49,976 nt of DNA. Source: Gemmatimonadota bacterium. GTDB lineage: Bacteria > Gemmatimonadota > Gemmatimonadetes > Longimicrobiales > Gaopeijiaceae. The stretch spans positions 83,944 to 133,919 of the forward strand of contig PBFD01000005.1 of the NCBI GenBank assembly GCA_002718595.1, given 5' to 3'. A program made the position numbers and the translations under genes. The notes beneath the pieces are model-generated. The model saw only the letters and a list, made by a program, of their open reading frames with translations. It was not told the DNA's origin and searched no databases. Positions 7,181 through 48,719 of this stretch are shown here, piece after piece; within the stretch, counting starts at the first letter, position 1, and each line of letters starts with the position of its first letter.

Positions 7181-8260
7181 GTGTATAATCTAGACCAGGG
7201 AGTGCCAGTAGAACGACACACCGAAATGTCCCTACGGACATTCTGTAATTCAGTCCTCCTTTCCCTCGGAGCTACAGAAGAGGAAGCCAAAATAACCGCT
7301 GATGGACTTGTAACAGCCTCTCTCTGGTGGCATCCAGGGCAAGGACAAGGACTGGAAAAACTGTTTCGCTATAAACGCCGTATTTTGAACGGCGGTATTA
7401 TTCCAGCAACCACCATGGTTTGGTTGAAAGATAAACAGTCCATTGCTCTTCTGGATGCTCAAAAGGGACTGGGTTACGTCTCAGCAAACAGAGCTATGGA
7501 AAAAGCAGTTGAAAAAGCCAAAGAATCGGGTATATCAATGGTCGGTGTATGTCACAGTAACCATTTTGGAATTGCTGGATATCATGCCAAATACGCAGCT
7601 GATCAGGGGATGATAGGAATAGCTATGACTAACGCTGGAGCTGAGATGGCTCCATGGGGTTCTGTTACTCCGATTCTAGGAACTAACCCTTGGGGAATTT
7701 CTATACCACGGCCAGATGGAAAAGACCCCATTGTACTAGACATGGCATTAACACAATCGGGTAAAGGCATGATGCGTTGGTTAAGACGCCAGGGTTCACC
7801 TATGCCTAGGTCCTGGGCACTGACTGAAGAAGGTAGTGCTACCGAAGACCCCGAAGCGGCCGACACTGGCGTACTACTGCCCATGGGAGACTACAAGGGT
7901 TATGGACTTAGCCTTATAACAGATATTCTCACTGGCGTGTTAACCGGCTCTCTTTTTGGATCACGAGTCTTTCAGGATGATACTAACTTTGATGTGGCTC
8001 ACACCTTAATCGCAATCAACATAGAATCCTTCATGGATAAAGCCATTTTCAATACACGGCTTGAGAGGTTACTATCGGAAGTTCTTGACGCTCCACCCCT
8101 AGATTCGAATTTACCAGTCCAGCTACCTGGACAAGCCGAACAAGCCAGAGCCTTAAGAAGAAAAAAAGAAGGTATTCCAATAGACAAACAAACCATTAAT
8201 GGCCTACAAGCTTTGGCCACTGAACTGAACATACCTTTCCTTCTGAAAAAGGTTAAATAA
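7181..8260 (+). CDS. Ldh_2-family (malate/L-lactate type) NAD(P)H-dependent oxidoreductase
   Basis: A member of the malate/lactate/ureidoglycolate dehydrogenase family that is unrelated to Rossmann-type LDH. It reduces or oxidises 2-oxo/2-hydroxy acids or cyclic imino acids. Family motifs include SNHFGIAGYHA, the GTNPWGISIP cofactor segment, RRQGSPMP followed by SWALTEEG, and MGDYKGYGLSL. The length of 359 aa is typical. The usual SHG motif near residue 45, which carries the catalytic histidine, is replaced by WWHPGQGQG, so the active site may differ. The GTG at 7181 has AGGAG 12 nt upstream; an in-frame GTG at 7202 and an ATG at 7226 are alternatives. The stop is 10 nt before an AstE/AspA-type deacylase, so the two are probably one operon handling an N-acyl or cyclic amino acid. 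Confidence 0.88.
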   Translation: MYNLDQGVPVERHTEMSLRTFCNSVLLSLGATEEEAKITADGLVTASLWWHPGQGQGLEKLFRYKRRILNGGIIPATTMVWLKDKQSIALLDAQKGLGYVSANRAMEKAVEKAKESGISMVGVCHSNHFGIAGYHAKYAADQGMIGIAMTNAGAEMAPWGSVTPILGTNPWGISIPRPDGKDPIVLDMALTQSGKGMMRWLRRQGSPMPRSWALTEEGSATEDPEAADTGVLLPMGDYKGYGLSLITDILTGVLTGSLFGSRVFQDDTNFDVAHTLIAINIESFMDKAIFNTRLERLLSEVLDAPPLDSNLPVQLPGQAEQARALRRKKEGIPIDKQTINGLQALATELNIPFLLKKVK

Positions 8261-8270
8261 AGGATTCCCC

Positions 8271-9275
8271 ATGACAGATACACTCACAATAGGAAATGTC
8301 GAGGCACCCCTAAATAGTTACAGAAGAGGTGCCATTACAACTGGTAAAAACTTTGATGGACGATCCACAGAAATTCCAATACTGGTATGTCGAGGTAAGG
8401 AGGAAGGACCAAAACTCTGGCTAAATGGAGCTACCCACGGCGACGAACCGGAGGGAGCACTATCCATCTTCAAGACCTTCGAATGGCTACAGCATTGCTT
8501 GATAAAAGGAACAGTAGTGGGCGTCCCGGCAATGAACGTGCCCGCCTTTCAAGCAGGAAAACGGGGAGATCCATTAGATGGGTTTACCTACGACATGAAC
8601 CGTATTTACCCAGGAAATCCAGATGGATATCCCACCGAACGTTCGGCCTGGGCCCACTGGGAAGCAATGAAAGACAACTGTGATCTCCAAATAGCCATCC
8701 ATTCAGGAGGAGAACACTCCTATCTCGCACACATGATATTTGCTTCGGACAACCCCCGAAGTTTAGAACTGGCTGCCGCAATGGGACCGCAATGGGACCT
8801 AGTTTTCCGCAGTGGACAGGGAGGAAACAACCCTGCGTCCAAAATAGGAGACTCGGGAAAAGCGGGCATAACCATAGAATTAGGAGGTAATTGCCGGACC
8901 TTAACCAATGATTTCCACGAAGTTGCTGATGACCTTTCTAGTAGCTATAAAAATGTACTAAGACACTACGACATGATCGAAGGAGACCCACCAGAATATG
9001 TTACTGAATGGCGCATGGGCCACCAGCAAGCTCTCCTAGCACCCGCATCGGGCATGTGGGTAGGGGCGCCAGACATTCCCTTTGAAACCCAAATACCTAA
9101 GGACACCGTTCTGGGCTGTATTTACGACTTATATGGTGACATCCAATCACAAGTAGTGGCCCCCGAAGACGGAGTAGTCTTCGGCTTGCGTTCAAGACCT
9201 TCGGTACTCGCTGGAGAGTGGTGCTGCTTTTTTGGCATTATCGACGAAGTTAGGTCAGACCTGCTCAGCCGTTAA
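8271..9275 (+). CDS. Succinylglutamate desuccinylase/aspartoacylase (AstE/AspA) family deacylase
   Basis: A zinc-dependent carboxypeptidase-fold deacylase of the M14-related AstE/AspA group, which removes acyl groups from N-acyl amino acids or related amides. Zinc ligands appear in NGATHGDEPEG (H56, E59) and IAIHSGG (H144). The substrate-binding DMNRIYPG motif (R111) and the probable general base in ITIELGG (E203) are present. The C-terminal part looks like the family's barrel-type domain with APASGMWVG. The length of 334 aa is normal and no signal peptide is seen, so it acts in the cytoplasm. AGGA lies 6 nt before the ATG, 10 nt after the Ldh_2 gene. With that neighbour it suggests a pathway where an acylated or lactam-like amino acid is hydrolysed and the product oxidised or reduced; the substrate is not determinable here. 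Confidence 0.88.
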   Translation: MTDTLTIGNVEAPLNSYRRGAITTGKNFDGRSTEIPILVCRGKEEGPKLWLNGATHGDEPEGALSIFKTFEWLQHCLIKGTVVGVPAMNVPAFQAGKRGDPLDGFTYDMNRIYPGNPDGYPTERSAWAHWEAMKDNCDLQIAIHSGGEHSYLAHMIFASDNPRSLELAAAMGPQWDLVFRSGQGGNNPASKIGDSGKAGITIELGGNCRTLTNDFHEVADDLSSSYKNVLRHYDMIEGDPPEYVTEWRMGHQQALLAPASGMWVGAPDIPFETQIPKDTVLGCIYDLYGDIQSQVVAPEDGVVFGLRSRPSVLAGEWCCFFGIIDEVRSDLLSR

Positions 9276-9383: not shown

Positions 9384-10064
9384 CTATTTGTTCCGAGTAC
9401 GCTTACGAAGTGTCTCCAGCGACAATCTGTGGAATACCTCTGCTATCCCTTTGTTGATCACACTGGGATGCTTCATTTCTTCCTGAGCAATCAAGGCCGC
9501 TGCCTGTCCCATCACCTGAAAGCGAATAAACCATTTTAAGTGGCTGTCCCCAACCTGCAATCTTCCAAATACCTGGTCGAGGACTCCGTCAACCGTATGC
9601 TTAACATACTTTCTGGCCGACTTTCCTTCTAATTCCAGAGGGACCTGTATTTCCACCTTCGAACCCAAGCCCTCTGGGAAAAACCAACCTTCTGCCGAAT
9701 TGCACTTTCTCATGTTGCAAAACTCGATGTGCCATTTAAACCAGTCATACTGCCAATTGTCATATAATCCATAGTATTCAAGCCATTCGCGTAATTTTAA
9801 CTCGAACAATTCGGGTTTCATTGTTGAACAATGCAGCGGACCCGAATCAAGTCTCTCCCACATTTCAGGACACATTGCTCGGGCAAACTCTAAGAACCTC
9901 CTTCTGAGAGCGCTTGTAGGGGTTGAGCCCTCTACCAACACTACATCGGCAACTTCATCCTCAAATTCTGGTGTGGGTGGAAACTTTATCCCGGCCTTGT
10001 CGGCCTCCCAGTATGGGTGCTTATTTCGGACCCTGAATTTCTTTTTATTGATCCAGTCCGCCAT
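9384..10064 (-). CDS. Unrecognised soluble protein, 226 aa
   Basis: I do not recognise this protein. It is basic at both ends (MADWINKKK and LRKRTRNK), very rich in tryptophan and tyrosine in the middle (EWLEYYGLYDNWQYDWFKW), and has no signal peptide or membrane segment. Two cysteines near the middle, in CNMRKC, and an earlier HCST could bind metal, but no known domain is evident. A start with a strong purine-rich binding site (GGGAGAGGGG just upstream of ATG 10064) and normal amino acid composition support a real gene. It is separated by over 280 bp from the next minus-strand gene and faces the deacylase convergently, so it is probably transcribed alone. Confidence 0.7.
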   Translation of the reverse strand: MADWINKKKFRVRNKHPYWEADKAGIKFPPTPEFEDEVADVVLVEGSTPTSALRRRFLEFARAMCPEMWERLDSGPLHCSTMKPELFELKLREWLEYYGLYDNWQYDWFKWHIEFCNMRKCNSAEGWFFPEGLGSKVEIQVPLELEGKSARKYVKHTVDGVLDQVFGRLQVGDSHLKWFIRFQVMGQAAALIAQEEMKHPSVINKGIAEVFHRLSLETLRKRTRNK

Positions 10065-10347: not shown

Positions 10348-11745
10348 CTAGGGCAAAGACTTTGGATCTATTTTCTGGCGTCTTACTAGATGGCCACGAC
10401 CCCTCTTCGCTATAACCTCTCCATCTTGAACTATGACCTCTCCTCTCGAAAAAGTCATTGTTGGAAAACCTGACACCCTTAAACCTTGATACGGAGTGTA
10501 GTCCACTGCCGAATGCAAACATCTCGCGCTAAGCTCTACTTCTTTGTTCGGATCTACGATCACAATGTCTGCGTCAGCGCCCACCTTCAAACTCCCTTTG
10601 TTAGGGTACATTCCAAAAATTCGAGCCGGATTAGTCGAAGTTAGTTCCACGAAGCGACTCGGTGAGATACGTCCCGCCTTGACCCCATATGTAAACATTA
10701 GAGGCAATCGTGTCTCTATCCCCGGTAAGCCATTCGGAATTCTAGTAAAATTGTCACGACCTGTTGTTTTTTGATCCTCATAATGAAACGGGGCATGGTC
10801 TGATGAGACTTGCTGAAGCAAACCATCTTCGACAGTACTCCACAGTGCCTCTACCTGATCTATATCTCTTATGGGGGGACTACATACAAATTTTGCCACC
10901 TCGAAGCCCCCTTCCGGGTCATAAACTGCATCGTTTAAAACCAAATATTGCGGACAAGTCTCCCCCACTACTGGTTGTCCGCGCCCTCGAGCTTCTTCTA
11001 AATGGCCAGCTACAAGCTTAGATGTTACGTGAGCGATACAAATTGGAGCACCAGCAATCTCAGCTAACATGATCGCCCTATTAGTCGCCTCAGCTTCTAC
11101 GAGAACAGGTCGACTAGATGCATGAAATGATGGGCCCGTCTCCCCTCTAGAAATATGTCTTTCTATCAGGTGGGTAACCGCACAATCATTTTCACAATGC
11201 AGGTAAGCCAGTCCTCCTTTAGCGGCCAGCTCTTCCAGTAGTAGGAGCAAATCTCCATCTCCTACTTTCTTGTCACCATAAGTCATATAAACTTTAAATG
11301 ACGGAAATCCAGATTCAACCAGACTTTCCACCTCTTTGATGGAATTTGGATTGACATCTGTCACTATCGTATGGAAAGAGTAATCTATAATGCTATTAGG
11401 TTCTATCTCCCCTAATCTCCTATCTCTAGCCTTTAAGAGTGACTCTCCCCTATCCTGCAGAGAGAAGTCAATGATAGTGGTCACTCCACCACACGCTCCA
11501 GCTATTGTTCCTACATGGAAATCGTCCGCCGTTCTGACCCCTAGTCTTCCTATGGGATGATCCAAATGCGTATGTGTATCTATGCCCCCTGGCATTACCC
11601 ACTGCCCAGTTGCGTCAAAAATCGAACCATCGGTTTCTAAACCGGTCCCCTTCTGAGCGATCTTACCATCCCTGATTAGCACATCTGTTGGACCCATGCT
11701 GTCGGCTGTAACAACCGTGCCTCCGCGAATCAATATGTCAGCCAT
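10348..11745 (-). CDS. D-hydantoinase/dihydropyrimidinase-type amidohydrolase
   Basis: A cyclic-amide hydrolase that opens hydantoin, dihydropyrimidine or similar rings to N-carbamoyl amino acids. All metal and catalytic residues of the family are present: THTH (H58, H60), the carboxylated lysine in SFKVYMTY (K151), H183 in LHCEND, H239 in IAHVT and the aspartate of SSDHAP (D316). NGLPGIETRLPL and GADADIVIVDP are typical family segments. The length of 465 aa is normal and no signal is present, so it is cytoplasmic. Its start overlaps the end of the preceding aminotransferase by 8 nt, making it the last gene of a six-gene minus-strand operon. No N-carbamoylase gene is recognisable nearby; the amidase across the divergent promoter could serve a related step. 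The exact substrate is unknown. Confidence 0.92.
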   Translation of the reverse strand: MADILIRGGTVVTADSMGPTDVLIRDGKIAQKGTGLETDGSIFDATGQWVMPGGIDTHTHLDHPIGRLGVRTADDFHVGTIAGACGGVTTIIDFSLQDRGESLLKARDRRLGEIEPNSIIDYSFHTIVTDVNPNSIKEVESLVESGFPSFKVYMTYGDKKVGDGDLLLLLEELAAKGGLAYLHCENDCAVTHLIERHISRGETGPSFHASSRPVLVEAEATNRAIMLAEIAGAPICIAHVTSKLVAGHLEEARGRGQPVVGETCPQYLVLNDAVYDPEGGFEVAKFVCSPPIRDIDQVEALWSTVEDGLLQQVSSDHAPFHYEDQKTTGRDNFTRIPNGLPGIETRLPLMFTYGVKAGRISPSRFVELTSTNPARIFGMYPNKGSLKVGADADIVIVDPNKEVELSARCLHSAVDYTPYQGLRVSGFPTMTFSRGEVIVQDGEVIAKRGRGHLVRRQKIDPKSLP

Positions 11746-12958
11746 CTTCTTCCAGGCCTTCCACGAATTCTGTCATCCGAGCCATCGCCTCCTCTATACT
11801 TTTCTTAGGTGCCAAAAGAGATACTCTCACCCAGTTTCGCCAACTATCTCCAAAAGAATTTCCGGGGAACATTAAAACACCCGCGTCTCTTAATAGCCGG
11901 TAACAGAACTCTTCAGCACCAATACCAAACCGAGTCATATCAGCCCAAAGAAACAGCCCTCCATAGTGTTCTGCATATGGAACTCTCATCCTATTAAAAC
12001 CATCCATTAAAATCTGTCTTCGATCTTTGTACCTGCTCAGAAATTGAGGGCGAGAATCGTTCTCCATTTCTAATGCGGCCAGCGCAGCATACTGAGAAAA
12101 GGTTGGGCAGGGTCCAGACGTGGTTTCCTTGATCGATGACACTGCGTCAATAAAATCTGGAGGGCCGACCAAAAAACCAACCCTGAATCCAGTCATCGCA
12201 TATGACTTAGAAAACCCAGACAGCACTATAGAACGATCTCGAGCGCCGTCTACACCCCAAAAACAAAGAGATTTGTGATCATCAAAAATAATATCTTCAT
12301 AGATTTCATCAGACAAAACGATTATACCCATCTCCTTAGCTACTTCAGCTAGTTTACGAACACTTTCTACCGTTGCACACGATCCTGTTGGATTGGATGG
12401 GTTTACAAATACAAGCAATTTAGCATCGGACGCATACTCCCTAAGATCTGCTTCCTTTAGTTCGAAGAATCTGCCTTCCTGCTGCGTCGGGATTGACACT
12501 ATAGTACCTCCACATGCACCAATGGCTTGATCGTATGAAGTATATCGAGGGTCTGGACAAGCCACCTTGTCACCTGGATCCACAAGCGCCAATAGTGCCA
12601 AGAAGAGTCCCTCTTGGCCACCATTTGTGATTATCAATTCTTTTTCGGGATCCACAGAAATTCCCTTTTCCTCCATATATCGATCCGCAATTTTCCTTTT
12701 GAGATCGGGCAACCCTCGAACTGGGCCTAGGATGGAATTATCTGAACTTGCATCACGGTTTGACAAGGTAGAAAAATACTTCATTGTCCCATCAATTATC
12801 TCCCTTTGAGTGTGCAGATCCGGATCGCCTCTTCCTAACGAAATCACATCTTTTCTACTCTTAGCCAAATCCATCATTTTATAACGCAGAGACGTGGCTT
12901 TCTCACCGGATTCGACTGCTCCGCGGCCAGCCTTACTGCCCTTTTCTCTAGCACTCAT
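11738..12958 (-). CDS. Class I/II pyridoxal-phosphate aminotransferase
   Basis: A fold-type I aminotransferase of the aspartate/aromatic aminotransferase superfamily, 406 aa from the preferred start. Cofactor residues are intact: NPSNPTG (186-192), SDEIYED with D217 and Y220, and the Schiff-base lysine in SGFSKSYAMTGFRVGF (K251) followed by the phosphate-binding arginine. The C-terminal arginine that would bind the substrate carboxylate is in NWVRVSL. The ATG at 12958 makes an ATGA 4-nt overlap with the upstream gene and has AGGAG 7 nt before it; earlier in-frame starts at 12979 and 13033 would give longer overlaps. It follows a truncated relative that has lost the lysine, and precedes the hydantoinase. 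It probably moves an amino group to or from the acid made or used by the operon. Confidence 0.9.
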   Translation of the reverse strand: MSAREKGSKAGRGAVESGEKATSLRYKMMDLAKSRKDVISLGRGDPDLHTQREIIDGTMKYFSTLSNRDASSDNSILGPVRGLPDLKRKIADRYMEEKGISVDPEKELIITNGGQEGLFLALLALVDPGDKVACPDPRYTSYDQAIGACGGTIVSIPTQQEGRFFELKEADLREYASDAKLLVFVNPSNPTGSCATVESVRKLAEVAKEMGIIVLSDEIYEDIIFDDHKSLCFWGVDGARDRSIVLSGFSKSYAMTGFRVGFLVGPPDFIDAVSSIKETTSGPCPTFSQYAALAALEMENDSRPQFLSRYKDRRQILMDGFNRMRVPYAEHYGGLFLWADMTRFGIGAEEFCYRLLRDAGVLMFPGNSFGDSWRNWVRVSLLAPKKSIEEAMARMTEFVEGLEEDG

Positions 12959-13680
12959 GGCCTTTCTCCTAATGCCCATAGTGCCGCCCTTTGTGAAGGA
13001 GATGGGGCACAGATTGACGAAGCTTGTTTCCATCCAGTTATCCCTTTTAGGACAGAGGTATCGGCGGAAACAAATCCTAGATCAAAGCCATGTTTTCCGA
13101 GCAAGCTCGATAGGGACCCTAGCAAGATAGTGCTTGGAGAAAACTTCAGGCCAGTTACTTCTTCACCAAACAAAGTATCGCCCAATGCACAAATCTCAGT
13201 TTCGAACCCGCCGCTGGAAGATCCCATATTGGCTCCCCCTCTCAGTTCCCGATAGGCTATGGATATACCCATGTCCTCAGCGCCACAGACATCTATGCCC
13301 AGCCAATCAAAAAGTTTCTGATGATGGAGCCCTTTTTCTCCCGAGACGCGACCTCCTGGAACTAAATCCAGACCTAACATGGTCACAAAGACAGCTTCTC
13401 CTTCACTAGCCGTTATCAATACTTGATCTCCGCCACGAGAGTCATCTAGGTATTTCCCCAGTTCTCTTCCCACCATATCTCTGAGGTCTGCCATCCCTGG
13501 CCGATCGGGATAATGTGTTTCTCCTCTCCCTAGGTGATAACTAAGGCTATCAACCAGACCTTGGGGAATCTGAATGGCTCCTTTTCTTTTGGGCTTCCCT
13601 TCGGAGCTAGCATCTAATAGAACTCTAGCCCTCTCCGAAAGAGCTTCTGCAACTGTTGGTACTTTGTTCAATTTATTCAT
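12955..13680 (-). CDS. Degenerate aminotransferase-like protein lacking the PLP lysine
   Basis: A 241-aa protein that I read as a shortened class I/II aminotransferase. YPDRPGMADLRDMVG and DQVLITASEGEAVF match the N-terminal half of such enzymes. GDTLFGEEV sits where the DEIY motif belongs, and LLGSLSSLLGKHGFDLGFV (186-204) aligns with the lysine region. The Schiff-base lysine is serine (S192) and the phosphate-contacting arginine is aspartate (D200). The NPxNPTG segment is eroded to NMGSSSGG and the C-terminal small domain is missing. The frame is intact, and 4-nt ATGA overlaps join it to the SDR upstream and the aminotransferase downstream, so it is translated and retained rather than a fresh pseudogene. 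A role as partner or regulator of the intact aminotransferase is an inference. The homology is from motif reading only. Confidence 0.72.
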   Translation of the reverse strand: MNKLNKVPTVAEALSERARVLLDASSEGKPKRKGAIQIPQGLVDSLSYHLGRGETHYPDRPGMADLRDMVGRELGKYLDDSRGGDQVLITASEGEAVFVTMLGLDLVPGGRVSGEKGLHHQKLFDWLGIDVCGAEDMGISIAYRELRGGANMGSSSGGFETEICALGDTLFGEEVTGLKFSPSTILLGSLSSLLGKHGFDLGFVSADTSVLKGITGWKQASSICAPSPSQRAALWALGERP

Positions 13681-14495
13681 TCGTCCACTCCAGGTAGAAC
13701 GTATTCTGCAACCTCGTGAAGTTGTTCCAGGGTTAATTCTGATCCGAATTCTGCGATATAGTTAGCCAAAGTGAATGCGTCAAATCGACAACCGCTAATA
13801 CCACCCCTTAAGCAAGCTAACAAGTGAAAGGCGGGACCTAATATCGTGGGATCACTCCAGGCCTGACTGGTTGTTGATTGCAGTGCTACTACATCTGCAT
13901 CGGTAATAGAAGTGGGTTTAATTTTTAATCCTGGAGTAACCGAATTGACACTAATTTTTGACCCTGACAATTCTAATGCCAAACACCGAGTAAATGCCTC
14001 TATCCCAAATTTAGAAGCACAATAAGCCGTCTGATCTGCAAAACCTAGTACACCAGCTCGAGACGATATGTTTATGATTGATCCTCCCTGATCCGAAAGC
14101 AGAGGAACCATTTCTCTTGTCAGAAAAACAGGAGCTGTCAAATTCACCTGCAAAGTGTACTCCCAAGAATCCCTATTTATCTGCTGCAACGACTGCCTTT
14201 CAAGGACAGCCGCATTATTAATGATTGCAACCAGCCTGCTACTTCCTTGCTTGACGTCCCTGGTCAGCATCGATAGCTCAGATTCAGAAGCTAAATCGAT
14301 AACTCGTGTTTTTACCCAACCACCACTACCTCTAATATTCTCTGCCGTCTTTTCAAGCTCTTCTTCTACTTCGGAGGTTATCCAAAGGTGAGCACCAACT
14401 TGACCCAGGAAGCAAGCGATTCCCCTACCTAACCCCCGGCCAGCACCAGTTACCAGGACATCCATACCCTCTATAGGTTCCCTCAAATATTTCAC
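13677..14495 (-). CDS. Short-chain dehydrogenase/reductase (operon SDR)
   Basis: A classical SDR of 272 aa, NAD(P)-dependent and cytoplasmic. TGAGRGLG (16-23) is the cofactor-binding loop, NNAAV the structural motif, and the catalytic residues are serine in NISSRAG (S144 or S145), Y158 and K162 in YCASK. The C-terminal stretch after the PG motif is less regular than usual, with SGCRFDAFTLANYI in place of the common TGQ-type ending. It has a 4-nt ATGA overlap with the degenerate aminotransferase downstream and starts 7 nt after the DUF819 gene. In this operon it likely oxidises or reduces an alcohol/ketone intermediate, alongside the D-2-hydroxyacid dehydrogenase. The substrate cannot be told. 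Confidence 0.88.
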   Translation of the reverse strand: MKYLREPIEGMDVLVTGAGRGLGRGIACFLGQVGAHLWITSEVEEELEKTAENIRGSGGWVKTRVIDLASESELSMLTRDVKQGSSRLVAIINNAAVLERQSLQQINRDSWEYTLQVNLTAPVFLTREMVPLLSDQGGSIINISSRAGVLGFADQTAYCASKFGIEAFTRCLALELSGSKISVNSVTPGLKIKPTSITDADVVALQSTTSQAWSDPTILGPAFHLLACLRGGISGCRFDAFTLANYIAEFGSELTLEQLHEVAEYVLPGVDE

Positions 14496-14502
14496 TCTTT
14501 GA

Positions 14503-15699
14503 TCACCCTAACATTGCCCTGACTGCATAGGCACAGACGGTCCCTAGGTAATTACCCACAGCATAACCAAATATTCCCACTATAACTCCAGGTGCCACTA
14601 GCTTACCCCACCTCATGGCTAGGCTTATGGCCAGTGCAGAACCTGGACCCCCTATGGCCGCCTGGCTGGCTATTGTGACAATAGCCAAATCAATTTTAAG
14701 GAGCCATGCCGCTCCGTAACTTACAATTACGTGAACAGCCATAACGATGATCATGAGTGAAAAAATAGGAACACCAGCCTTCAAAACTTGGGAAAGCTCA
14801 GATGCTGCTCCCAGCTGGATAAAAAAGATATGCATTGCAAAATAAGAAAGTACTTCAGCCCCATTAAGATTTCTTACAACAGGTAGCAGGGAAGCTCCCA
14901 GAGCCAAGGTTGTCAGCCAGATGATATCAGGTATGCCTGGGAAAAGACTAAGCAACTGCTGAGCAACCCACAAAAAGAGAAGTGGTAGGGCACCTAAAAC
15001 AGCTAACTCCAACACATTAATCTTCGTATCTGTCCAGCGCTTTCTCATTGCCTCTGCTTCTGCTTCCTCCTCTTCAGAAATACCATCACCACTAGCTGCT
15101 ATACTCCCATCTTGAACACTGTCTTCACCTGCCGACTTGTTCGAACCAATTCGTCTCAAAAAAACCCCAGCCAGTGCAGTAGCAAGCCATATCTGCAGTA
15201 ACATATAGGGAACTGTAGACATATTATCCGCCACGGCTGCAGCAGCGAAAATATTTGTATCAATATCCAAGCTCTGTCCAATAGCAGCGAAATTTAAACC
15301 ACCACCCATAAATGCTGCTGCAAAAGCACCCGAAAGCTTCCAGGTCTCAGACCCTACAAAACCAGCTGTCGAAAGGCCTCCTATTATTCCCCCCACTACG
15401 CTACCTAAGCATGCGGCAGTATAGGCTATAATCATTGGCCATCCAGCATTTTTCAGCTCCCGCATATCCGTTCCCATGATGATCAGAACAATAGCATACG
15501 GAATAGCATATGTGCCCACAGCTTCATGGACTGGACCAGTGTGTCCTATCAATCCTATGTTCGCGAAAAATATACCGAGAAGTGTACAAACTACCGCAGA
15601 AGTGATTTTCTTTATGAATGCTATACGCTCTTCCAAAATTCTTGCAAAAGCAATGATCGCGAGCATAAAGGTTAATACCAATAAAGGGTCCTGAATCAT
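14503..15699 (-). CDS. DUF819-family integral membrane protein, probable transporter
   Basis: A 398-aa polytopic membrane protein with roughly ten hydrophobic helices in two halves, split by an acidic cytoplasmic loop around residues 185-220 (rich in glutamate). Family features are FMGGGLNFAAIG in the first half, QAAIGGPGSALA in the second, and the C-terminal GIFGYAVGNYLG. DUF819 proteins resemble inverted-repeat carriers; their substrates are not established. The ATGA 4-nt overlap with the D-2-hydroxyacid dehydrogenase, and 7-nt spacing to the SDR, tie it firmly to the operon, so it is the likely uptake or exchange carrier for the compound degraded by the pathway. That function is inferred from context. 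Confidence 0.88.
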   Translation of the reverse strand: MIQDPLLVLTFMLAIIAFARILEERIAFIKKITSAVVCTLLGIFFANIGLIGHTGPVHEAVGTYAIPYAIVLIIMGTDMRELKNAGWPMIIAYTAACLGSVVGGIIGGLSTAGFVGSETWKLSGAFAAAFMGGGLNFAAIGQSLDIDTNIFAAAAVADNMSTVPYMLLQIWLATALAGVFLRRIGSNKSAGEDSVQDGSIAASGDGISEEEEAEAEAMRKRWTDTKINVLELAVLGALPLLFLWVAQQLLSLFPGIPDIIWLTTLALGASLLPVVRNLNGAEVLSYFAMHIFFIQLGAASELSQVLKAGVPIFSLMIIVMAVHVIVSYGAAWLLKIDLAIVTIASQAAIGGPGSALAISLAMRWGKLVAPGVIVGIFGYAVGNYLGTVCAYAVRAMLG

Positions 15700-16700
15700 A
15701 CGTCCACCAATCCTTTTAGTTCTGATTCCGATCTCAATGAATCCAGATTATTTATCACGTCGGTCATCATACCTTTCTGTCCACCACCGGTGCCACCTCC
15801 CACGTGAGGTGAAAAGAGGACTTTAGGACAATCGACTAAAGGATGTCCTTGTGGCAACGGTTCATATAGAAACGCGTCCAGACCTGCTCCTCCAATACGC
15901 CCCTCTTGCAAGGCAGATACGAGTGCTTCTTCATCGACAAGACCCCCGCGCGCTGTATTAATTAAGACAGCGGAGGATTTCATCAAATCAAGAGCTTTAG
16001 TATTGATCATTTTTTCCGTTTGGCTCGTATGGGGCGCGTGCAAACTCACGAAATCACTTGTCTGTAACAGTTCCTCCATTCCCACATAACGAACATTGGC
16101 CTGGTGCTCATGCTCAGCCAGCAAAGGATGGCGTTTAGTATAAAGAATCTCCATGTCGAATGCTTGTGCACGGCGCGACACCTCGACACCGATATCGCCC
16201 AAGCCCACAAGGCCCAATGTTTTCCCATATAGTTGTTGGACATCGTCAAATTTCAACCAATTAAAAGCTATCTTGCGCTCATTAGTCTCAATAGGATCGA
16301 GGTCGAGGTCGAGGTACTCACCATCTCTAGTCCCTAAATGACCATCAACCAGTCGGCGATAACAGCCCAGCATGAGGGATATAGTTTGTTCGGCCACCGC
16401 TATAGCTCCTCGATGCGGTAATACAGATACTGTAATTCCTACTTCCCTAGCAGCCATCCAATCAACAGCCCAAGGAGCCCTACCCTGTACCTGAATGAGC
16501 TTAAGACTAGGAAGAGAGGACATCATTTCTTTGCTGATGTATTGCTTTGATGTCAGCAATACTTCAACATCAGTAAATGTGTCCCAGGGCGTATCAGAAA
16601 TATCGTCGTACCATATCACATCTATTCCAGCAGCGGTAAACTCCACCTGGAACAGTTCTCTAATCCACCGTGGGAAAGATTGGGCATGTAAGACTCTCAT
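15696..16700 (-). CDS. D-isomer specific 2-hydroxyacid dehydrogenase
   Basis: An NAD(P)-dependent enzyme interconverting 2-oxo and D-2-hydroxy acids. The Rossmann motif GLGDIG is at 166-171, and the catalytic triad is visible as R251 (NTARGG), E280 (LYEPLP) and H299 (SPHVGGGTGG). The length of 334 aa is standard, with no signal peptide. It is the first gene of the six-gene minus-strand operon and its stop overlaps the DUF819 start by 4 nt. The divergent 126-bp gap upstream must contain its promoter. The combination with an aminotransferase suggests that a 2-oxo acid is a shared intermediate. Specificity within the family (glyoxylate, hydroxypyruvate, D-lactate or others) is not determinable. 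Confidence 0.92.
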   Translation of the reverse strand: MRVLHAQSFPRWIRELFQVEFTAAGIDVIWYDDISDTPWDTFTDVEVLLTSKQYISKEMMSSLPSLKLIQVQGRAPWAVDWMAAREVGITVSVLPHRGAIAVAEQTISLMLGCYRRLVDGHLGTRDGEYLDLDLDPIETNERKIAFNWLKFDDVQQLYGKTLGLVGLGDIGVEVSRRAQAFDMEILYTKRHPLLAEHEHQANVRYVGMEELLQTSDFVSLHAPHTSQTEKMINTKALDLMKSSAVLINTARGGLVDEEALVSALQEGRIGGAGLDAFLYEPLPQGHPLVDCPKVLFSPHVGGGTGGGQKGMMTDVINNLDSLRSESELKGLVDV

Positions 16701-16826
16701 TATCCTGTTAGATCCTTATGTTGATTTTCACCAAATCCCAGATTATAGAGAATCCCAAGCTAAAGTGCCAATCTGTTGACCGGAGTGTTCCTCAGGGCTT
16801 ACACTCATGCAACCGAGAGGAATCAT
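16701..16826. promoter_or_regulatory. Divergent promoter region of the amide/hydantoin-type cluster
   Basis: These 126 bp separate the start of the six-gene minus-strand operon from the plus-strand Tat protein/amidase pair and must hold both promoters. GAGAGG at 16815-16820 is the binding site for the plus-strand gene. No clear palindrome or sigma site was identified, and no regulator gene lies next to it. Confidence 0.45.
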
Positions 16827-17114
16827 ATGAAATTAAATAGACGACAATTTACTAAAACGGCGGGGACTGGCAGTATCGCCCTAGCTATAGCCTGGCAACA
16901 AGCCTGTTCAGAAGTAGCAGAATCAGGTGAAGTAAGTACTGAAACAGTTGAAGTCTTACTAGACTCCCAAGGGTCTAGAGGTATTTACCAAGAAAGCCAA
17001 GAATTTGAACGGCTCCGTCGAGCGGTAAGTGGTATGATAAGGACTCAGCAAAATCTGAGGGATTTCACAATTGACGAGGACGAGCAGCCTTCCACCGTTT
17101 TCTGGAGAGGATGA
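16827..17114 (+). CDS. Small Tat-signal protein coupled to an amidase
   Basis: A 95-residue protein beginning MKLNRRQFTKTAGTG, a clear twin-arginine signal followed by a hydrophobic run and ACSEV, which could be a lipobox. The mature part is short and acidic with LRRAVSGMIRTQQNL; I recognise no enzyme domain. ATG 16827 is chosen because GAGAGG lies 6 nt upstream and it places the RR motif at the N-terminus; the frame is open to 16776. Its TGA overlaps the amidase ATG by 4 nt. It may be a separate Tat-targeting or membrane-anchoring subunit that carries the signal-less amidase out with it, or an exported accessory protein. Co-export is inference. Confidence 0.75.
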   Translation: MKLNRRQFTKTAGTGSIALAIAWQQACSEVAESGEVSTETVEVLLDSQGSRGIYQESQEFERLRRAVSGMIRTQQNLRDFTIDEDEQPSTVFWRG

Positions 17115-18586
17115 AGATGCCAGAACCTATTCATTTTCGGTCAGTCCGAGAACTAGCAGAAGGATTGCAAAAAAGGGAATTTTCATCTCTAGAACTCACT
17201 GAGCTATATCTCGCACGAGCCCGTGAACTTGACGTGCCTCCCTTCGATCTTCCTGATGAACCCCGTGAAGACCATGACGGCAAACTCGCCACTATGATTA
17301 CTATCGCTACAGATCATGCCATCGAGAGCGCTCGAGCAGCTGACAAAGACCTGGCCTCAGGTGACAGGAAAAGTATCCTTCACGGTATTCCATATGGTGT
17401 AAAGGACATACTGGACACCACTGGAATCCGTACGACTTGGGGATCTCGCATCTTCAAAGATCGCATCCCCAGTCGCAATGCTACTCCAATTGACAAACTA
17501 GAAGAGGCTGGAGCAGTCCTGATGGCCAAAATGTCTATGGGAGAATTTGCGGGAGGAAATACCAGCACAGCACTCAACCCTTGGAAACTTGACCGTACTA
17601 GCTTTGGTTCCTCCAGTGGAACTGTCTCAGCAGCAGTAGCTGGACTCATGGGATTCGGAATCGGTACCGAAACAGGAGGATCGATAGTTTACCCTGCATC
17701 AGCAGTGGGAGCTTCAGGCCTGCGACCAACTTTTGGAAGGGTCAGTAGATTCGGCTGTATGGCTTTATCATGGAGTCTAGACAAGATAGGTCCAGTCGGA
17801 CGATCGGCTGAAGACTGTGGCTATGTGCTGGAGCAAATAGCTGGGTACGACCCTAAAGACAACTCTACAGGCCAACGAACATTCAATTTTCGACCAGATC
17901 CTGGAAATATGCGAGGGAAGAAATTAGGAGTATGTAGGGCTGAGTTTGAGTTGTCAGCTTCAGAAACTACAAGAAAGGTCTTTCAGGAAGTTCTAGACTC
18001 TTTCGAGCAAATGGGGGTGGAACTCCAGGATATTTCATTTCCTCAGAGACCTACTGGAGCTCTCTTTTCAACACTCGTTACAGTCGAAAGTGGTACGAAT
18101 TTCAAAAATCTATTTGACGACGGACGTATCAAAGAGATGTTTTCTTTCAACGAAGACCGAGCTGCAGGGTGGATGGCAGGAAGAATGATGCCAGCTTCAG
18201 ATTATCTTACAGCGCAACGAATTCGCAACCAAGTGAAGAGAGAGGCCGACCAATTAGTCGGTGAATTCGATGCCGTGATTGCTCCTACCTGGCCTAATGG
18301 AGCAGCTCTACGTGTAGTGCAAAATGGCTGGCCAGTGCCGGCAAGACCAGAATGGGAACCACCAAATGAAGTAAACTCTGCCACTCCCAAACTAAATTCT
18401 ATCGGAAACCTAGTGGGGCACCCTGGCCTGGCAATTCCGTGTGGATTTGATGAAGATGGACTACCTCTTTCCGTTCAGATAGTCAGTTCAGCTTGGGAGG
18501 ATCAATCTACCCTTGATTTTGGCATGGCCTATCAAAGAGAAACTGACTGGCATCTACAAAGACCTCCCTATCCTTGGCGCACATAA
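17111..18586 (+). CDS. Amidase (amidase-signature family, GatA-like)
   Basis: A serine amidase with the Ser-cisSer-Lys triad: K98 in IPYGVKDI, the cis-serine within SFGSSSGT (167-169) and nucleophile S191 in TETGGSIVYPA. The length of 491 aa is normal. It lacks a signal peptide, while the overlapping upstream gene supplies a Tat signal without a catalytic domain. The closing SIGNLVGHPGLAIPCGF is typical of the family. It is not the GatA subunit of Glu-tRNA amidotransferase, judging by the absence of gatB/gatC and by context. The start at 17111 forms an ATGA overlap and has GGAGAGG directly upstream; an ATG at 17117 is an alternative. It probably hydrolyses an amide related to the divergent hydantoinase operon, which remains inference. 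Confidence 0.92.
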   Translation: MKMPEPIHFRSVRELAEGLQKREFSSLELTELYLARARELDVPPFDLPDEPREDHDGKLATMITIATDHAIESARAADKDLASGDRKSILHGIPYGVKDILDTTGIRTTWGSRIFKDRIPSRNATPIDKLEEAGAVLMAKMSMGEFAGGNTSTALNPWKLDRTSFGSSSGTVSAAVAGLMGFGIGTETGGSIVYPASAVGASGLRPTFGRVSRFGCMALSWSLDKIGPVGRSAEDCGYVLEQIAGYDPKDNSTGQRTFNFRPDPGNMRGKKLGVCRAEFELSASETTRKVFQEVLDSFEQMGVELQDISFPQRPTGALFSTLVTVESGTNFKNLFDDGRIKEMFSFNEDRAAGWMAGRMMPASDYLTAQRIRNQVKREADQLVGEFDAVIAPTWPNGAALRVVQNGWPVPARPEWEPPNEVNSATPKLNSIGNLVGHPGLAIPCGFDEDGLPLSVQIVSSAWEDQSTLDFGMAYQRETDWHLQRPPYPWRT

Positions 18587-46845: not shown

Positions 46846-47526
46846 TTGCATCCCTATAGGGAGATCCCAATCACCACAGCAAACCAGCACAAAGTCAAAC
46901 GCGACAATGTCACCAGAGCTATCTGGGGGATCATCCCCTGTTGTGGAAAATCCCGTCGTATGGGTACATCCAAACCAATGCTCAGAATTGGAAATCAAAC
47001 GTTCTTAGAACACGCCATCTTTACCCTTAAGAGGGGAGGATGTGAAAGGGTTTTAGTCTGCTTACCCGATAAACACGGCCCACTAGCGGCAAAAACATTA
47101 CAAGCAGGAGGCCACGTCATACAAAATACTGATCCAGAGAAAGGACCTATCTCATCCCTGCAAATAGGAATCAAACACTTGATGCCTGAAATTGAAAGGG
47201 TTTTGTTTTGTCCAGTTGATTACCCTTTAATTAAGGTTAAAACTGTCCAGAAATTGGTTGATCATTTTCAAAAAACCGATGCACCTCTAACTTTTCCAGT
47301 TTACAAGAATGAAAGAGGCCACCCTGTCATCTTCCACAGAAAGCTTTTTGGAAAACTCCTTGAAGATGACCTTCCTGAAGGAGCTCGCACAGTCGTTCTA
47401 GAAAATCTCTCCCATGCACACCCAGTAAACACAGAAGATAATGGTGTTGTGATAGACATTGATGATATGGCCACCTATCGGCAACATTTTCCTGATGAGT
47501 ATCGCAATCGTTTTAGTGCCAGATGA
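46846..47526 (+). CDS. MobA/MocA-like nucleotidyltransferase
   Basis: A nucleotidyltransferase of the MobA/MocA group, which attaches GMP or CMP to molybdopterin. The N-terminal nucleotide loop reads IPCCGKSRRMGTSKPML, in place of the usual LAAGxSxRMG-type sequence, and FCPVDYPLI supplies the metal-binding aspartate. The C-terminal DIDDMATYRQHF is usual for the family. There is no ATG before the core: the only NTG start is TTG 46846, at the foot of the preceding hairpin; an ATC at 46870 with AGGGAG 6 nt before it is a possible rare start. The TGA overlaps the next gene by 4 nt. It is grouped with XdhC-like genes, as expected for cofactor maturation. Confidence 0.8.
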   Translation: MHPYREIPITTANQHKVKRDNVTRAIWGIIPCCGKSRRMGTSKPMLRIGNQTFLEHAIFTLKRGGCERVLVCLPDKHGPLAAKTLQAGGHVIQNTDPEKGPISSLQIGIKHLMPEIERVLFCPVDYPLIKVKTVQKLVDHFQKTDAPLTFPVYKNERGHPVIFHRKLFGKLLEDDLPEGARTVVLENLSHAHPVNTEDNGVVIDIDDMATYRQHFPDEYRNRFSAR

Positions 47527-48371
47527 TCTGCCAGAACAGGGCACCCTTGAGTGCCGAAGAAGCTACTAAAGAAGTTATTCTGGCGAGGCAACGTCAGGAA
47601 GCAATCGCACTAGTCCTCCTCACTAGTGGACCCAGTAAAACTCTAGGTCAAAGAATTGCAGTTAAAAGATCGCAGGATGGCACGCTGAGCGTAACAGGCT
47701 CATTTGAGGAAAAGGAAATTAACGATAGGGCAATATCCCTAGCAGAATCCTCACTTGGTTCAAGACGCTCTGAAGATCTACAAAAAAGTGAAGTGACCAC
47801 AGCTTCAGGACAAACTTACACACTATTTGTCGAAACATACCGCCCCAAACCCGAATTGATCATTGTTGGGGCTGGGCACATAGCCCAACCCTTATGTTCG
47901 ACAGGCATCCTGTTGGGATTTAAAGTCACCATAATTGACGATAGAAAGGAATTCGTCACTGAAGCCCGTTTCCCAGATGCCCATCGATTGATAGAAGTGG
48001 ATTTCAACGACCCGTTTAAGGATATATCGATTAGTCTCAATAGTTATTTTGTTCTCGTTACTAGAGGACATAAATACGATTTTGAATGTCTTCGGTTCCT
48101 CCTAAAAAATGATATCGAAGCTGGTTACATAGGCATGATCGGAAGTAGGCGTCGTATAAGGGCAGCTTTCATCCAACTAGTAAACGATCAGATTGATCCA
48201 AAACGAATTTCCCAGATTAGAGCACCCCTAGGACTGGATTTAGGAGCAGAGACGCCAGCAGAAATCGCGATAGCCATAGCAGCAGAACTTGTCTTGCTAT
48301 CTAGAAAAGGGGATGGTACTCCTTTAAGCGAAAAAGAAAATATTTTCAATCGATTTTTTGACCACAAATAG
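47523..48371 (+). CDS. XdhC-family protein, Rossmann-domain part
   Basis: XdhC/CoxI proteins bind molybdenum cofactor and load it into xanthine dehydrogenase-like enzymes. This 282-aa protein has a poorly conserved N-terminal region, then PELIIVGAGHIAQPL (Rossmann loop, from about residue 111), DDRKEFVTEARFPDAHR, VLVTRGHKYDFECLRFLL and GYIGMIGSRRRIRAAF, all diagnostic. GLDLGAETPAEIAIAIAAEL closes the family signature. The classical N-terminal XdhC domain is not at its front but is encoded separately in the next gene. It overlaps the MobA-like gene by ATGA. No molybdenum hydroxylase gene is seen in the window. Confidence 0.9.
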   Translation: MICQNRAPLSAEEATKEVILARQRQEAIALVLLTSGPSKTLGQRIAVKRSQDGTLSVTGSFEEKEINDRAISLAESSLGSRRSEDLQKSEVTTASGQTYTLFVETYRPKPELIIVGAGHIAQPLCSTGILLGFKVTIIDDRKEFVTEARFPDAHRLIEVDFNDPFKDISISLNSYFVLVTRGHKYDFECLRFLLKNDIEAGYIGMIGSRRRIRAAFIQLVNDQIDPKRISQIRAPLGLDLGAETPAEIAIAIAAELVLLSRKGDGTPLSEKENIFNRFFDHK

Positions 48372-48380
48372 GATTATCTC

Positions 48381-48719
48381 GTGAAGCACAAAGATCAAGA
48401 TCTCCATCAAGAAATACTAAATAAAACGGAAGAAGGAAGAACTGTAGCATTGGCTACAGTGGTAGCTACCAAAGGTTCAGTCCCTCGAAAAACTGGAGCG
48501 AAAATGTTGGTAGATCCTGGACATGAATTAGTTGGCACGGTAGGGGGAGGTTGTGGAGAAGGCGAAGTAATCGAAATAGCACATCAGGTCATTGAATCAG
48601 GAAAACCTCAGATGGTGCATGTCGATTTGACCGAGGACATTTTGTCCCTAAGCCCAGCAGTTTGTGGGGGTACAATGGAAGTATTTGTAGAGGCAATCAA
48701 ACGCCAAGATGTCGAATAA
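48381..48719 (+). CDS. XdhC/CoxI N-terminal domain protein (separate small gene)
   Basis: A 112-aa protein that is just the XdhC/CoxI N-terminal domain: ALATVVATKGSVPRKTGAKMLV, then GTVGGGCGEGEVIEIA with its conserved cysteine and SPAVCGGTMEVFVE. In single-chain XdhC this domain precedes the Rossmann part; here it follows it as a separate gene 9 bp later. The start is GTG 48381, with AGGA 7 nt upstream. It probably works with the 47523-48371 protein. Its end overlaps the DUF402 gene by 11 nt. Confidence 0.88.
   Translation: MKHKDQDLHQEILNKTEEGRTVALATVVATKGSVPRKTGAKMLVDPGHELVGTVGGGCGEGEVIEIAHQVIESGKPQMVHVDLTEDILSLSPAVCGGTMEVFVEAIKRQDVE

Follow-up and report, generated by a model that had tools for sequence, protein, structure and literature searches.

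What could be the function of a bacterial locus in which a hydantoinase, a D-2-hydroxyacid dehydrogenase, a DUF819 carrier and two aminotransferase-like genes, one of them degenerate, are assembled? Such a locus occurs in the window analysed here (the whole stretch of 49,976 nucleotides), which belongs to a Gemmatimonadota genome of 2.0 Mb that is 93.7% complete. The original prediction, made for eight genes at 10348-18586, proposed uptake, hydrolysis of a ring or amide, transamination and reduction, in a combination that is not known as a named pathway. The ORF coordinates agree with its description of six minus-strand genes, the junctions of which overlap by 4, 4, 4 and 8 nt with a single 7-nt gap (between the DUF819 and SDR genes), and which face a plus-strand Tat protein/amidase pair, itself joined by an ATGA overlap, across a short divergent spacer (Table 1). 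The family assignments were likewise confirmed by Pfam and NCBIfam (TIGR02033, PF05684, PF00155, PF02826, PF00106, and PF01425). All eight genes stand, but the boundary at 10348 does not, since two further conserved members lie beyond it: the cluster is a ten-gene set, which includes the convergent genes for an Ldh2-type dehydrogenase and an AspA/AstE-like deacylase. The minus-strand gene at 9384-10064 encodes a 226-aa protein without a family match; it shows 59% conservation in a second species of the genus (locus L014), while no copy turned up close to the cluster in other genera.

Table 1. Position of the cluster features in the window, with the evidence for each.
Feature	Position	Strand	Evidence
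Malate/L-lactate (Ldh2) family dehydrogenase, L-2-hydroxyacid type	7181-8260	+	PF02615, 348 bits
AspA/AstE-like Zn deacylase, convergent with the main operon	8271-9275	+	PF24827
D-hydantoinase/dihydropyrimidinase-type cyclic amidohydrolase	10348-11745	-	TIGR02033
AT, class I/II aminotransferase-like PLP enzyme, 406 aa, putative catalytic subunit without Tyr70 equivalent	11738-12958	-	PF00155
ATGA shared by degAT (stop) and AT (start)	12955-12958	-	(A/G)TGA at degAT stop across loci
degAT, large-domain-only pseudo-aminotransferase, 241 aa, keeps Tyr70 equivalent	12955-13680	-	AF2 model, Foldseek, conservation
SDR, TGxxxGxG and YxxxK intact	13677-14495	-	PF00106, 151 bits
DUF819 membrane carrier (CPA/AT superfamily, reentrant fold)	14503-15699	-	PF05684
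D-2-hydroxyacid dehydrogenase, Arg/Glu/His motifs intact	15696-16700	-	PF02826, 193 bits
Spacer separating the divergent transcription units	16701-16826	no strand	126 bp, sequence
Small twin-arginine-signal protein, 95 aa, ATG at 16827	16827-17114	+	Alignment of 14 orthologues
Amidase-signature hydrolase, Ser-Ser-Lys motifs intact	17111-18586	+	PF01425, 257 bits

The degenerate aminotransferase gene (degAT; its intact neighbour is termed AT) was used as the most specific marker of the cluster. Scanning a four-sequence alignment against about 85,000 species genomes revealed 21 true relatives, and none were found in viral contigs. The record titles of these relatives are nearly all Gemmatimonadetes or Longimicrobiales (four are Gammaproteobacteria), and many of the bin names are those which we take to come from sponge metagenomes. 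Within the phylum, degAT is present in 20 of 395 genomes, all belonging to three genera of one family; it shares 62-63% identity with its counterparts in the two further species of the genus and about 44% with that of a different genus. Within the limits of the contigs, about 20 loci in other genomes show the same genes in the same order: amidase and Tat protein face D-2-hydroxyacid dehydrogenase, DUF819, SDR, degAT, AT and hydantoinase, followed 3' by the convergent AspA-like deacylase and then the Ldh2 dehydrogenase (in L023, the amidase pair lies outside the 10 kb taken). This set and order are kept across genera despite protein identities of only 40-75%. Conservation of the neighbourhood in relatives, on which the original prediction had been staked beforehand, thus extends to three genera, and its recurrence in so many genomes means that the cluster is beyond chance.

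The two aminotransferase-like proteins differ strongly from each other. AT matches PF00155 with 209 bits (cut-off 19.7), and both this score and its catalytic residues place it in class I/II. degAT falls outside this class, having no lysine and only the large-domain fold, and it yields no Pfam match at E 0.001. Its AlphaFold2 model (pLDDT 74, pTM 0.75) matches the large domain of class I/II aminotransferases (Foldseek E 1e-9), and in the alignment the protein ends where the small domain would start, the whole of which is missing.

In the textbook picture, class I/II aminotransferases are homodimers whose two active sites are identical, and Tyr70 of aspartate aminotransferase (the numbering of which is used throughout) reaches across the dimer to the PLP phosphate of the neighbouring subunit. 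We aligned 23 degAT, 22 AT of the cluster and 25 further aminotransferases encoded in related Gemmatimonadota genomes. Tyr70, which corresponds to Tyr57 of degAT, is present in every degAT, in no AT and in 24 of the 25 other enzymes, whereas Lys258, Asn194 and Arg386 are each kept in 22/22 AT and 25/25 other aminotransferases and in 0/23 degAT (for Arg386, the domain is absent). Asp222, Tyr225 and Arg266 are also found in all 22 AT. The THY stretch is replaced in AT by a loop ending mostly in GPVRG, and because this loop contains no Tyr, the Tyr70 result is independent of the exact alignment. In degAT, the interface-adjacent segment carries an invariant loop, WKQASSIC.P.PSQ, which differs from that of AT, and the interface motifs are invariant in 22-23 copies.

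The term “degenerate aminotransferase” used in the original prediction is therefore apt for the loss of catalytic residues and of the small domain, but not for a decayed copy, since degAT is conserved and selected and its losses mirror those of AT. Of the seven close pairs for which its dN/dS could be computed, six give 0.15-0.23 and one gives 0.55, as compared with 0.06-0.18 for AT; degAT thus evolves faster than AT, and judging from these ratios it is a conserved protein under purifying selection. A pseudogene status was rejected on the same values (mostly about 0.15-0.25). In the tree, the degAT proteins group in one clade, which a long branch separates from AT, and degAT is therefore not a recent duplicate; this separate branching is no argument against its pairing with AT. 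One could still regard degAT as a decaying duplicate of AT lying in a loose collection of ordinary metabolic genes, as its lost catalytic residues and small domain would allow. However, the conservation data already contradict this, namely the low dN/dS in six of seven pairs, the invariant motifs and the same gene set and order in divergent genera, which makes such a decay extremely improbable.

We consider it quite probable that AT and degAT form a heterodimer. The complementary residue losses and the conserved start/stop overlap point to a putative one-site enzyme: AT appears to keep the residues for its own use, while degAT appears to keep the residue donated to the partner, for which it would need no small domain, and this is the pattern expected of a single-site heterodimer. 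The (A/G)TGA at the degAT stop was found in all loci checked that have both genes (in frame with AT except in L032), which suggests coupled translation. That the two aminotransferase ORFs seem to overlap by 79 bp is an artefact of start-site choice, as AT likely begins with the ATG at 12958. We are inclined to see here an obligate heterodimeric class I/II aminotransferase that works in a catabolic pathway not described so far and in which one partner has been pared down to its large domain; degAT would survive in it only to complete the active site of AT with Tyr70 and the invariant KQASSIC loop. This apparent division of labour between the two subunits seems to be the most interesting element of the cluster.

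Alternatively, degAT may be a separate regulator, chaperone or sensor of aminotransferase descent, with AT an ordinary homodimer that tolerates the Tyr70 loss. AT could have lost this residue for another reason, given the remodelled loop, and the faster evolution of degAT might be compatible with a regulatory role too, as are its truncation, its long branch apart from AT and the retention by AT of its own-subunit PLP residues. However, the strict reciprocity of Tyr70 loss and retention over 22-23 loci, the start/stop coupling of the two genes and the invariance in degAT of exactly the interface motifs argue against a separate regulator, which we regard as unlikely.

How does the putative heterodimer compare with known systems? 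Nothing relevant on heterodimeric aminotransferases was found in the literature searched. In some bacteria, the glycine decarboxylase P-protein, a fold-type-I PLP enzyme, is split into catalytic and non-catalytic homologous subunits (PA/PB); it differs from AT/degAT in family and reaction. The nearest precedent is serine palmitoyltransferase, in which LCB1 and LCB2 are homologous fold-type-I subunits, one of them without the PLP lysine, and which is thought to be a single-site heterodimer (PMC3794620). AT and degAT are likewise a homologous pair in which one putative subunit has no PLP lysine and the other has it, and the lysine-less one keeps the interface-donated residue (Tyr70 in every degAT copy). 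LCB1/LCB2 are eukaryotic, membrane-bound members of the alpha-oxoamine synthase family, whereas AT/degAT are bacterial and of the class I/II aminotransferases; the bacterial serine palmitoyltransferase homologue is a homodimer (PMC3794620). Unlike in LCB1/LCB2, nothing is left of the small domain in degAT, the putative inactive subunit of about 240 aa. If the heterodimer is real, this naturally split pair with its reciprocal losses would show a route from an aminotransferase homodimer to a one-site heterodimer, and also that the donating subunit can do without a small domain.

The curated family closest to AT is GntC, (S)-gamma-hydroxy-L-arginine cyclodehydratase (NF041364), which is the best NCBIfam model for both AT (272.9 bits) and degAT (40 bits). 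On these scores the locus might serve the biosynthesis of a non-canonical amino acid, AT being a cyclodehydratase similar to GntC. However, AT falls below the GntC cut-off of 415 bits and is no member of this family, while no tailoring, peptide-synthetase or export genes were seen in the locus, where hydrolases and uptake-type transporters dominate; a biosynthetic role is thus very improbable. In GntC, too, the neighbouring subunit contributes a residue, N52*, to the active site (PMC10367076), but GntC is a homodimer, in contrast to AT with its missing Tyr70 loop and its dedicated partner. The neighbourhoods of the closest ordinary aminotransferases (L116 and L118) hold peptidase and peptide-transport genes and gave no clue to the substrate.

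Returning to the catabolic reading, the hydantoinase is by score (528.5 bits against a cut-off of 393.25) a full member of the D-hydantoinase/dihydropyrimidinase family TIGR02033. Its best PDB match is the D-hydantoinase 1k1d (E 1e-117), and its HxH, Lys, His, His and Asp motifs, including the metal and lysine residues, are kept in 18/18 loci. Unlike D-hydantoinase systems, the cluster has no recognised carbamoylase or hydantoin racemase gene. The AspA-like deacylase is 71-84% identical and convergent with the hydantoinase in other loci, keeps its HGDE motif in 18/18 and pairs with the hydantoinase also in genera that have no aminotransferase module. Its only NCBIfam match is DoeB of ectoine degradation (84 bits against a cut-off of 403); unlike that pathway, the cluster was not seen to contain genes of the DoeA, DoeC or DoeD type.

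These hydrolases invite comparison with reductive pyrimidine catabolism, of which the cluster could be a variant with dihydropyrimidinase, ureidopropionase and beta-alanine transaminase, the more so as the hydantoinase passes the dihydropyrimidinase model and relatives add an NCS2 permease of the xanthine/uracil type. However, the dihydropyrimidine dehydrogenase PreA was not found above the cut-off in this genome (best match 121.6 bits, cut-off 335), which makes ordinary reductive uracil degradation unlikely; moreover, the transaminase is of class I/II with the alpha-carboxylate Arg386 and not of class III, and two 2-hydroxyacid dehydrogenases would be left unexplained. We therefore consider the pyrimidine variant improbable.

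The dehydrogenases are also well preserved. The Ldh2 enzyme is 64-68% identical in loci of other genera, where it adjoins AspA, and its catalytic motifs are kept in 16/16; its best NCBIfam model, L-sulfolactate dehydrogenase (NF040650), gives 238 bits against a cut-off of 500, which leaves it outside that family. The motifs of the D-2-hydroxyacid dehydrogenase are intact in 19/19 loci and those of the SDR in 20/20. Since the amidase keeps its Ser-Ser-Lys motifs as well (9/9), the gene set as a whole, from the hydantoinase and AspA-like deacylase to the dehydrogenases and SDR, looks enzymatically alive.

The amidase resembles GatA and biuret hydrolase among PDB entries, has no recognised signal of its own and is coupled to the 95-aa Tat-signal protein, which possibly is a Tat-exported partner carrying the amidase along. 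Among 14 orthologues of the small protein, RRxF and one Cys do not vary and the C-terminal tail is conserved, and Pfam, NCBIfam and PDB searches gave no confident family; an AtzG-like identity, suspected from the tail, was unsupported by the same searches. The DUF819 carrier, a member of PF05684 (182.5 bits, cut-off 27), is the sole copy in the genome. The transporter fold class to which it belongs includes the glutamate and the 2-hydroxycarboxylate symporters (PMC8396727); a 2-hydroxy acid or an amino acid as cargo would be consistent with this, though not proven by it.

Amide and cyclic-amide hydrolases, carriers of the uptake type and a pair of 2-hydroxyacid dehydrogenases, one for each handedness, suggest catabolism of an amide or ureide compound and argue for a route through an amino acid/2-oxo acid/2-hydroxy acid node. 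A catabolic or uptake role of the locus is fairly probable, and the best overall explanation, to which we lean, is an amide- or cyclic-ureide catabolic locus with an obligate heterodimeric PLP enzyme. The Tat-exported small protein would accompany the amidase, acting outside the cytoplasm or at the membrane, and DUF819, in relatives also a TRAP system and an NCS2 permease, would import the product or the substrate. As their families suggest, the hydantoinase and the AspA-like enzyme may then act as hydrolases, the former opening a cyclic ureide or imide and the latter removing an acyl or carbamoyl group, so that an amino acid is freed. AT would bring PLP-Lys258, Asn194, Asp222, Arg386 and the only small domain, with degAT supplying the missing Tyr70 equivalent, and as one enzyme they would interconvert the amino acid and its 2-oxo acid, which the D-2-hydroxyacid and Ldh2-type dehydrogenases could link to D- and L-2-hydroxy acids. 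Uptake, hydrolysis, transamination and reduction, as originally predicted, fit the genes present and the additional transporters of relatives; the order of the steps, with a hydantoin-like substrate, is tentative and rather doubtful. No described pathway with this content was found, in line with the original claim. The pathway is a candidate, while the cluster itself is real and conserved. Through it, a DUF819 carrier would gain a defined genomic setting, and there would be a hint of a nitrogen-containing compound that Gemmatimonadota, likely sponge symbionts among them, consume; apparently, marine and sponge-associated members of the phylum have in common a gene set for uptake and breakdown of a cyclic amide.

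The composition of the locus varies among genomes. In many relatives, inserted NCS2 permease and TRAP DctPQM genes separate the Tat protein gene from that of the dehydrogenase, a 1-Cys peroxiredoxin gene lies between AT and the hydantoinase, and a kynureninase-like class V enzyme is encoded 3' of the hydantoinase. Orthologues of DUF819 and of the hydantoinase are absent from four sister genomes that have no degAT. In two other genera, hydantoinase/AspA/Ldh2 or Ldh2/AspA/Tat/amidase occur as units from which the aminotransferase module is missing. The locus is thus built of modules, and hydantoinase, AspA and Ldh2 may have a separate function. A double-VOC protein (methylmalonyl-CoA epimerase-like) adjoins or lies near Ldh2 in other genera (L113:8105-8998; g12 and g25 clusters, e.g., L027:18849-19709) and is absent from the cluster of the window. 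Beyond the amidase, some clusters (L031:1260-2366, L036:2-598) carry an ordinary aminotransferase that is 36-39% identical to AT and may be a homodimeric relative; the L031 copy keeps Tyr70.

Four MAG records titled Gammaproteobacteria (L022, L023, L025, and L030) bear this Gemmatimonadota cluster. Horizontal spread to Gammaproteobacteria, which the titles would imply, was not supported: over 4,000 bases, L025 does not differ from G013, a genome belonging to the same family as the window, which makes the titles look misassigned, and L022 and L023 have the exact degAT sequence in common with genomes of genus g12. Elsewhere in the window, at 46846-48719, a MobA-like nucleotidyltransferase gene and two XdhC/CoxI-like genes were recognised by eye, which suggests a molybdenum hydroxylase maturation set nearby.
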